Shown piece after piece: positions 53,889-56,675 of a stretch of DNA of 64,000 nucleotides. Below the pieces are notes generated by a model that saw nothing but the letters and a program-made list of their open reading frames with translations, had not been told where the DNA came from and made no database searches. Source of the stretch: Thermococcus sp. 21S9 (GTDB taxonomy: Archaea; Methanobacteriota_B; Thermococci; Thermococcales; Thermococcaceae); assembly GCF_012027635.1 (NCBI RefSeq), contig NZ_SNUS01000001.1, positions 1,426,001 to 1,490,000 on the forward strand. The letters run 5' to 3'. The position numbers were made by a program, and so were the translations under genes. How positions within the stretch are numbered: position 1 is the first letter of the stretch; every line of letters begins with the position of its first letter.

Positions 53889-54171
53889 ACTCCCTTCTCT
53901 TTTGTTTGTTCCAGAATGACCACAACATCTCGAGTCCTGCACTTCTATTGTGGACGTAAGGGAAGTATAGGAAGGGAACCCCTAAGAGGTATGGAAAAGT
54001 CCGCATCCCTTTTTCCAACTTTGGCGCTAAGTTGTGGGGGTTCTTTCAAACACGCGGAATTGAGTTATGTTTTCTATTTCCACGTCCGAAGGACGTTTTT
54101 GATGGTTGAAAACGATAGAAGGGTAGAAATTTGAGTAGGAACCCCCTCAACGGGCTCGGCAGTTTGTTTGG
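53889..54171. other. Disordered intergenic patch beside tRNA-Ser
   Basis: 283 bp without a convincing gene, and less GC-rich than the surroundings. It holds: a copy of ATCTCGAGTCC (about 53933-53943), identical to the tRNA-Ser anticodon region; an inverted repeat CCAACTT...AAGTTGTGG; and a perfect ACGTCC-GAA-GGACGT hairpin followed by T4 (54082-54100). A 47-codon ORF (about 53993-54134) has codon use unlike its neighbours. Possibly a remnant of an integration event at the tRNA gene. Confidence 0.4.
54082..54100 (+). terminator. Hairpin followed by T run
   Basis: ACGTCC GAA GGACGT TTTT is a perfect 6-bp stem with a T tail, like a bacterial intrinsic terminator, unusual in this window. It lies on the + strand downstream of map, 200 bp past its stop. 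Confidence 0.4.
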
Positions 54172-54255
54172 CGCCGGGGCAGGGATTTGAACCCTGGTGG
54201 GCGGACGCCCACGGGATCTCGAGTCCCGCGCCTTCCCAGGCTAGGCTACCCCGGC
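54172..54255 (-). tRNA. tRNA-Ser (anticodon CGA)
   Basis: Reading the minus strand from 54255: acceptor GCCGGGG pairs with CCCCGGC, discriminator G at 54172. The anticodon loop CTCGAGA lies within a CGGGA/TCCCG stem, giving anticodon CGA (codon UCG). A long variable arm (TGGGCGTCCGCCCA) is the class II hallmark of tRNA-Ser. The T arm is CAGGG-TTCAAAT-CCCTG. No intron; CCA is not encoded. 84 nt. Confidence 0.95.
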
Positions 54256-54276: not shown

Positions 54277-54294
54277 GGTTTTATAAATCTTTCC
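54277..54294 (-). promoter_or_regulatory. tRNA-Ser promoter
   Basis: Minus strand GGAAAGATTTATAAAACC, centred near 54284, predicts a start near 54258, 3 nt before the mature tRNA. It shares the GAAAGATTTATAAA core with the rpl21e promoter. Confidence 0.75.
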
Positions 54295-54391
54295 GCGAAA
54301 ACTTTATTAACCTAAGTTAACTAAAATGTCGCCGGTTGCAAAGGTTTAAATCCCAGGAGAACTAATATATAAATTGCAGGAGGTGGCAGAA

Positions 54392-55567
54392 ATGGTCGGA
54401 ATTCAGGTGCAGGAGGTAATGACGGACAGGTTCCAGAAGATAGACATCGACGCCCCCCTTTCTGAGGCGATAGGAATCTTCGAAAAGGAAGACCCCGACC
54501 TCATTCTGGTGTTTGATGGAAACCTGTACAAAGGCGTTCTGACCCAGGACTTGATTATCCGCTCCCACCTCAAGTGGGACCCAACCAAAGCTAAGGTTAG
54601 GGACGTTTACAAGCCCGCTCCCGTCATAGAGCCCGATGAGGATTTGAGCAAAGCGGCAAAGCTCATGATGGAGGTTGACCTCCGCTCCCTCCCCGTTGGG
54701 GAGAGCAAGGCTGAAATCATCGGTGTTATAAACGATATAGCCGTTCTTGAGAGGGTAGCTGAGACCGACTTCGGTAAGAAGAAGGTTGAGGAGTTCATGA
54801 CCAAGGACGTCATAACCCTCAAACCCGAGGACACCGTGGCCAAGGCCCTTGCGACGATGCGCGACCACGCGATATCGAGGATTCCGATAGTTGACGAGGA
54901 GGGAAGGCTTGAGGGTCTCGTCACGCTCCACGACCTAATCGTCAGATTCATCAAGCCCCGCTTCAGGGCCAAGGCCGGTGAGCTTGCCGGCGAGAAGATA
55001 CCGCCCTTCAGCATGCCCCTCCGCGACGTGATGATTAGAGGAGTCATCACGATTCTCCCAGACGCGAAGGTCAGGGAAGCGGTCGCCACGATGAAGGACA
55101 ACGACATAGATGGCCTTGTCGTCGTCAACGAGAACAATAAGGTCGTCGGAGTCCTCACCGTCAAAGACCTGCTCCTGCCCATCTCGAAGATGACGGAGAA
55201 GGAGGCGAGGTTCTACCTCCAGCTCGGCGGAGATGCCTCGATACTCAGCGACTTCACGAGGGAGAGAATCATAGAGGACATCAAGCGCTTCGTTGACGGC
55301 TACGAGGATTTACTCGGCCAGGAGGGCATAATCTACCTCTACATCAGGCGCTTCCCCGAGAAGTTTAGGGGAGTCCACCTCTACCAGGCCAGGATGAGGG
55401 TCGTCACAGACAGGGGCGTGTTCGTTGCCACCGGTGAAACCTGGGGAGCGATACAGGCGGTTCACGACGCTTTGAGGGCCATCGAGAGACAGCTCCTCCA
55501 GAAGGCGGAATTGGAAAAGGACACCCGCTACGCCAAGAGGTTCCTCGAGAAGCTCGGCCTCAGCTGA
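54392..55567 (+). CDS. Four-CBS-domain protein with C-terminal HPF-like domain
   Basis: 391 residues. Four CBS motifs: IQVQEVMTDRFQKIDIDAPL, KVRDVYKPAPVIEPDED, KVEEFMTKDVITLKPEDTV and PLRDVMIRGVITILPDAKV. The final ~100 residues (IIYLYIRRFPEKFRGVHLYQ, then ARMRVVTDRGVFVATGETWG and AIQAVHDALRAIERQL) resemble the beta-alpha fold and end of HPF/S30AE hibernation factors. CBS pairs bind adenine nucleotides, so the protein could tune ribosome hibernation to energy state (inference). GGAGGTGGC selects ATG 54392. Confidence 0.8.
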   Translation: MVGIQVQEVMTDRFQKIDIDAPLSEAIGIFEKEDPDLILVFDGNLYKGVLTQDLIIRSHLKWDPTKAKVRDVYKPAPVIEPDEDLSKAAKLMMEVDLRSLPVGESKAEIIGVINDIAVLERVAETDFGKKKVEEFMTKDVITLKPEDTVAKALATMRDHAISRIPIVDEEGRLEGLVTLHDLIVRFIKPRFRAKAGELAGEKIPPFSMPLRDVMIRGVITILPDAKVREAVATMKDNDIDGLVVVNENNKVVGVLTVKDLLLPISKMTEKEARFYLQLGGDASILSDFTRERIIEDIKRFVDGYEDLLGQEGIIYLYIRRFPEKFRGVHLYQARMRVVTDRGVFVATGETWGAIQAVHDALRAIERQLLQKAELEKDTRYAKRFLEKLGLS

Positions 55568-56675
55568 GCTCCTCGAACTCTCTCTCTATTATCCTTCTCT
55601 GCTTCTCGTTGAGGACTTCCAGGTTTATCACGAGAACGAGCGTTCCACCTTCCGAAACGACCCTGTCCTTGAGGTTCAGCAGGAACTTAACCGCGTTCTC
55701 GAAGCCGTTCTCAAGCATTAGGTACTCGAAGGCCTCGACGTATATCGTTCTGTAACCCTGGGCCAGCGCACGGGCTATCAAATCGGTGAGGATTTCAATT
55801 TTCGTCGGGCTTATGGCGTAAACCTGTGGCCTCTCCTCTAGCTTGCCCTCCTTCGCTCGCGTAACCCAGAACACAAGGGTTTCGGGGTTGAGGGAACTCT
55901 TGAGCGTTCTAAGGTCCTCTCTCGTGAGGACTACTGTTCCCGGCATGGACCAGAGCTTGCCAAGCTTCCTGAAAGCCTCTTCCCTGGAACGGAAGAGGAA
56001 AACACCCCTCTTGGGTGGGATTTCACCTTCTGTACTAACCGGAGTCACAGGATAGAACACGAACTTCACCGCACCAATCGCGGCCATCAGACGGAATATT
56101 CCTCCGAGGAAGAACCCGATGGGAGCGAACCAGTCTATGAACCTCGTGACCGGATACGTCAAGTTGAGCACACCGAGCAGGATGAGGCCCCAGGGGAACA
56201 TCGCCTCTGGGGTTCCACGTGAGATTACGTAGTGGTCCAAAACCCAGCCAAGGTACACGAGTGAACCTCCAAGAACGAGGGAAGGAAGGATTGACTCCTG
56301 CGTCGGGCTCTTGAACACATCGGTGGCAAGAAGGAAGAGCCAGATGTACGAGGCAACGGCCAGAACTGATATGTAAACTGTGTGTCTGAAGTCCGTTTTT
56401 CCATACCTGAGGTGAAACGCCCCCCAGATTAGCAGGATTCCAAAGAAGAAGTTGGGAATCTTCGCGGCTATGACGTACGCCTGCTGGTTTATGTGAACCC
56501 CAAGGGGATTAAGTATGTAGTCCTCTATCCCAAGGGCGTCTATGAAAAACGCAGTGCTAATCAAAACCCACCCCTTGTCCCTCGTCTGGTATGCCTTATA
56601 TGCAACTGCTATGAAGAGTACCCACCTTGAGATAAAGTTGAGGTAGGGGATTAGGTAGCTCCCTGGAATGCTCAT
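55560..56675 (-). CDS. DUF835 membrane protein
   Basis: 371 residues: seven hydrophobic helices in the N-terminal ~215 residues, then a cytoplasmic DUF835 domain (FLFRSREEAFRKLGKLW; YRTIYVEAFEYLMLENGFEN; GGTLVLVINLEVL) found in Thermococcales sensory and unknown proteins. Overlaps the nucleotidyltransferase gene by ATGA, so it is co-translated with it. A sensor or regulator role is a guess. Confidence 0.82.
   Translation of the reverse strand: MSIPGSYLIPYLNFISRWVLFIAVAYKAYQTRDKGWVLISTAFFIDALGIEDYILNPLGVHINQQAYVIAAKIPNFFFGILLIWGAFHLRYGKTDFRHTVYISVLAVASYIWLFLLATDVFKSPTQESILPSLVLGGSLVYLGWVLDHYVISRGTPEAMFPWGLILLGVLNLTYPVTRFIDWFAPIGFFLGGIFRLMAAIGAVKFVFYPVTPVSTEGEIPPKRGVFLFRSREEAFRKLGKLWSMPGTVVLTREDLRTLKSSLNPETLVFWVTRAKEGKLEERPQVYAISPTKIEILTDLIARALAQGYRTIYVEAFEYLMLENGFENAVKFLLNLKDRVVSEGGTLVLVINLEVLNEKQRRIIEREFEELS

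Follow-up and report, generated by a model that had tools for sequence, protein, structure and literature searches.

A probable HibA ribosome hibernation factor, its HPF-like fold and its conserved control region in Thermococcus sp. 21S9

Results

The hibA locus and its distribution

The window analysed here, a 64,000-nucleotide stretch of the Thermococcus sp. 21S9 genome, carries an intact open reading frame of 391 codons plus stop, whose product joins a module of four CBS domains to a C-terminal domain of the HPF/RaiA kind (Table 1). The mechanical start of this frame is an in-frame TTG at 54374, which lengthens it by 6 codons; the start of hibA was placed at the downstream ATG because the orthologues and the P. 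abyssi chain start there, with a conserved MVGI. Ahead of this ATG lies a Shine-Dalgarno sequence, AGGAGGTGG, which is kept in the orthologues. The reading frame is genuine, well past chance expectation.

Table 1 Features of the hibA locus, with coordinates given as window positions
Feature	Position	Strand	Basis
Distal BRE/TATA-like element GCGAAAAC TTTATTAA	54295..54310	+	kept in most of 60 loci
Imperfect dyad TTTATTAAC CTAAG TTAACTAAA, candidate Phr-like operator (inferred)	54303..54325	+	overlaps distal element
Proximal BRE/TATA: BRE GCAAAGG 54338-54344, TATA TTTAAATC 54345-54352	54338..54352	+	
Shine-Dalgarno sequence AGGAGGTGG	54378..54386	+	sequence; orthologue conservation
hibA, 391 aa, CBS module and HPF/RaiA domain	54392..55567	+	ORF; 84.6% identity to P. 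abyssi HibA
CBS1, residues about 7-65, degenerate nucleotide motif GVLTQD	54410..54586	+	Pfam CBS; 60 orthologues compared
CBS2, residues about 68-127, without nucleotide motif (GVIND; variants in orthologues)	54593..54772	+	Pfam; orthologues
CBS3, residues about 130-189, GLVTLHD; half of AMP/ATP site by homology	54779..54958	+	
PTC loop RFRAKAGELAGEKIPPFS, residues 190-207	54959..55012	+	15/18 identical to P. abyssi; role published
CBS4, residues about 210-268, GVLTVKD; second half of AMP/ATP site by homology	55019..55195	+	
HPF/RaiA-like domain, residues 270-391, 30S-binding by homology	55199..55564	+	Foldseek; 108/121 identity to P. abyssi HibA

Orthologues of hibA were found in 79 of the 81 Thermococcaceae genomes sampled, the other two being incomplete assemblies, and full-length relatives that are about 31–35% identical occur in another family of the same class. 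A peptide-pattern scan of named genomes for HibA, using narrow patterns, returned Thermococcus/Thermococci records only; the published figure is that HibA occurs in 47% of archaeal genomes (PMC13324472). One relative genome (G077) holds two full hibA copies (G077:C27:97921-99090 and G077:C28:2643-3812), which are 93% and 90% identical to the window protein, a pair that could be a duplication or a mixed assembly. Downstream, a minus-strand gene at 55560-56675 overlaps the stop region of hibA tail to tail, and its product has a DUF835 domain and an N-terminal half that is apparently membrane.

Kinship with published HibA

A phmmer search against the PDB matched the window protein to chain H of 9sr9 (E = 8e-219), a chain that equals the protein of a relative genome (G007) at every residue (390/390). 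The PDB record names this chain ‘Dehydrogenase’, probably a remnant of a former IMP dehydrogenase misannotation. HibA was described by Madru et al. 2026 (PMC13324472), who presented structures and a gene deletion, and appears under several names, namely Q9UYR4, Pab0961 and PDB 9sr9 for P. abyssi, F0LKU5 for T. barophilus and TK1186 for T. kodakarensis. Aligned without gaps, the window protein and P. abyssi HibA are identical at 330 of 390 positions (84.6%): the CBS module accounts for 222 of 269, with 15 of 18 in the PTC loop, and the HPF domain for 108 of 121.

The features that define HibA were found in the window protein. These include four tandem CBS domains (residues 1–269), detected as four stretches of the Pfam CBS profile (E = 9e-45), a long PTC loop (190–207) aligned gap-free with that of P. 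abyssi, a C-terminal HPF/RaiA-like domain (270–392) recovered by fold prediction, fold search and identity, and the near kinship to a characterised HibA given above. The window and P. abyssi proteins are alike in length, domain order, PTC loop, CBS3/CBS4 nucleotide motifs and HPF domain, whereas they, and T. barophilus HibA, differ by orthologue-level substitutions only. We put the probability that the window gene encodes HibA, a ribosome hibernation factor composed of a CBS module and an HPF domain, at about 0.94, which bears out an earlier sequence-only reading of this DNA that had proposed such a CBS/HPF fusion. The family was described in 2026, and the finding itself is real.

A further PDB entry, 9l96, is a haloarchaeal-looking CBS protein that matches the window protein in both its CBS and HPF parts, and is probably the HibA of a different archaeal lineage. 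Together with 9znf, 9zng and 9zni, it belongs to a set of recent entries containing CBS-domain chains with labels usual for large complexes.

An HPF fold that escapes sequence profiles

Sequence comparison alone scarcely reveals how the C-terminal domain is related, hence the kinship with HPF required a fold search. Pfam and NCBIfam searches of the window protein gave no S30AE match, and Pfam found nothing significant in the last 120 residues. The S30AE profile (PF02482), against which the sequence-only reading would have searched its C-terminal segment, left this protein unmatched and weakly matched four of 16 relatives (best E 0.02). Using hhalign, the domain was compared with E. coli RaiA and HPF as the bacterial sequences, giving a probability of 55% and a P-value of 1.2e-4 over 41 columns. 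A profile of the C-terminal domain searched against the PDB retrieved just two proteins, both CBS fusions (9sr9 and 9l96), and bacterial HPF was absent from the matches.

The predicted fold of the 122-residue domain is a confident βαβββα arrangement (mean pLDDT 91.2), and its 29 best Foldseek matches in the PDB are all HPF/RaiA/YfiA/pY proteins, as is every one of the 19 matches at E ≤ 0.001, so the structural match to HPF on which the earlier proposal depended was found. The HibA domain shares its fold with bacterial HPF, RaiA (YfiA) and pY, but at about 9–20% identity in the fold matches, and the bacterial proteins are without a CBS module; furthermore, the HPF domain of archaeal HibA has two insertions relative to bacterial HPF (PMC13324472). 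The earlier HPF call from sequence was a good one, because sequence methods almost miss this relation, and raw sequence here confirms a hibernation factor whose HPF part escapes standard profiles.

The CBS module and its nucleotide site

CBS3 is the best Pfam CBS stretch, and its GLVTLHD motif is kept in every common variant among the 60 orthologues compared. In both the window protein and these orthologues the G-h-x-T-x-x-D motif is kept in CBS3 and CBS4 only, therefore two motifs and one nucleotide site are expected rather than four. The ‘four CBS motifs’ of the sequence-only reading, described there as commonly binding AMP/ATP, stand as four CBS domains, but the nucleotide motif narrows to the CBS3/CBS4 pair. 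This retention agrees with the published nucleotide site of P. abyssi HibA at CBS3/CBS4, one per module, which binds AMP (Kd 12 uM), ADP (65) and ATP (113), ITC on the P. abyssi CBS module favouring AMP over ATP about tenfold (PMC13324472). In the full-length model, pLDDT was low at residues 191–201 (PTC loop) and 269–271 (hinge), as expected if these parts are mobile off the ribosome.

The tenfold preference for AMP and the motifs kept across 60 orthologues would suit an energy switch, in which AMP at CBS3/CBS4 favours ribosome hibernation by HibA and ATP counters it. However, nucleotides caused no clear change in the ribosome binding or conformation of P. abyssi HibA: the native complexes were without visible nucleotide, and adding AMP or ATP left the distribution of states unchanged, except for one extra, weakly populated state with ATP (PMC13324472). 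The ‘energy-sensing’ of the sequence-only reading is hence upheld for nucleotide binding and not for a clear effect on ribosome binding, and we regard the switch as a tentative proposal that is rather more likely to be wrong than right. AMP, ADP or ATP at CBS3/CBS4 may tune HibA availability or release.

The same genome also encodes a stand-alone four-CBS protein in a 281-aa open frame (G000:C1:1059246-1060073), possibly of the CM-3/HhpR kind or of another CBS-module family.

Action on the ribosome

P. abyssi HibA has been seen on ribosomes by cryo-EM, where its HPF domain occupies the mRNA/tRNA channel of the 30S and its CBS module adopts three positions on the 50S. The complexes are 70S monomers, on which the abundance of HibA approaches that of ribosomal proteins. 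HibA inhibits translation in extract, and deletion of hibA in T. barophilus cuts the 70S content of stationary cells by about 60% and makes the lag twice as long (PMC13324472). Read from these orthologues, the window protein would likewise bind ribosomes and inhibit translation. Its four-CBS module would shift on the 50S among the peptidyl-transferase centre, the P/E region by uL5 and the L1 stalk, with the loop at residues 190–207 as the putative contact with the peptidyl-transferase centre. Plugging idle ribosomes under stress, HibA would bar mRNA and tRNA binding and hold the 70S together, its active sites presumably shielded until regrowth.

Pab0961 and TK1186 also co-purify with GINS23, GAN and RadB (PMC3820547), as would be seen if HibA served chiefly as an adaptor linking GINS/GAN to RadB in replication or recombination and bound ribosomes in a secondary capacity. 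The near-ribosomal-protein abundance on 70S, the cryo-EM structures, the in vitro inhibition and the loss of 70S on deletion argue against this, as does the identity of the C-terminal domain as HPF, which was unrecognised in the 2013 paper (PMC3820547). We consider an adaptor as the chief function very unlikely; a second role for HibA is possible, given the co-purification with RadB and GINS23.

Less probable still is that HibA is a ribosome dimerisation factor of the aRDF or long-HPF type, the one argument for which is a mention, in the sequence-only reading, of reports on archaeal dimerisation factors with CBS domains. That mention conflates aRDF, which dimerises 30S subunits, with Dri, which has CBS modules; HibA complexes are instead 70S monomers, and the window protein is without a long-HPF dimerisation domain because the HPF fold ends it. 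Both aRDF (Pyrococcus) and HibA are archaeal ribosome-silencing factors, but aRDF drives 30S–30S dimers and the term ‘CBS domain’ is absent from the aRDF paper. Dri (Pyrobaculum calidifontis) resembles HibA in placing a CBS module on the ribosome and reaching the peptidyl-transferase centre, but has two CBS modules (eight CBS domains, against four in the window protein), no HPF domain and the reverse orientation at the PTC. A role in transcription regulation resembling that of HhpR, itself a four-CBS protein that stands alone, has a negligible probability, as the weak NCBIfam match to HhpR comes via the CBS repeats and scores 63 against a cut-off of 520, and the window protein carries an extra HPF domain and is closely identical to HibA.

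Promoter elements and a candidate heat-shock operator

With the protein family already known, the value of the present analysis lies mostly in the hibA control region. Two points are raised by the HibA identification, a possible cellular role of the AMP/ATP site at CBS3/CBS4, and a putative heat-shock operator and second promoter that may set the amount of HibA. The gene does have its own promoter, as the first reading held. The conserved proximal BRE/TATA (GCAAAGG-TTTAAATC) is kept about −52 to −41 from the ATG in related Thermococcaceae genera, with a predicted transcription start at about 54371–54376. The distal BRE/TATA-like element persists at loci with differing upstream genes.

In 52 of the 60 loci the dyad was found with ≤3 mismatches; it lies there at −83 to −107, also where the upstream gene differs, and shuffled upstream regions gave a mean of 6–7 mismatches and a minimum of 3. 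The evidence for the dyad is its positional conservation and not the mismatch count, because the templates came from the same alignment. Genome-wide, only two other places matched at ≤3 mismatches and the reversed control gave none. One of the two look-alikes overlaps the hsp20 promoter of the same genome, and the other lies 20 bases ahead of the start of a pbaA-type PAC2-family gene; both gene classes are reported as Phr targets in P. furiosus (PMC10746257). The HibA paper, citing earlier work, places hibA under Phr control (PMC13324472). The two-element layout of hibA resembles the arrangement at P. furiosus PF0321, which has two start sites with the distal alone under Phr (PMC10746257), a likeness of layout only. 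Taken with the dyad, hibA would probably be expressed from the proximal promoter and from a distal element under a Phr-like heat-shock operator. The fuller scheme for Thermococcales, a steady proximal promoter and a distal one under a Phr-type operator through which heat stress adds HibA, we rate slightly short of an even bet.

The tRNA-Ser noted beside the gene is a tRNA-Ser(CGA) at 54169-54255 on the minus strand, confirmed by Rfam, divergent from hibA and with its own TATA at 54280-54287 (minus strand). By our own count it stands beside hibA in 33 of 60 related loci, and it is absent from the sampled Pyrococcus-like loci. We rejected a functional role for the tRNA-Ser/hibA adjacency: many orthologous loci lack the tRNA, and the region between the two genes resolves into a promoter for each.

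A TATA-box mutation in an evolved strain

In genome G026, which we take to be T. kodakarensis KOD1, hibA starts at 1042471, and base 1042430 is the final T of the proximal TATA box TTTATAT (G026:C1:1042361-1042490), corresponding to window position 54351. ALE22, a T. kodakarensis strain evolved in the laboratory, carries 12 mutations, among them a T to C change at 1042430 ‘upstream of tk1186’; it also has EF-2 R715G (PMC12628685). The section concerned makes no remark on the change upstream of tk1186 (PMC12628685). This TATA-box change may be adaptive or a passenger, and selection may act on how the proximal TATA box tunes hibA.
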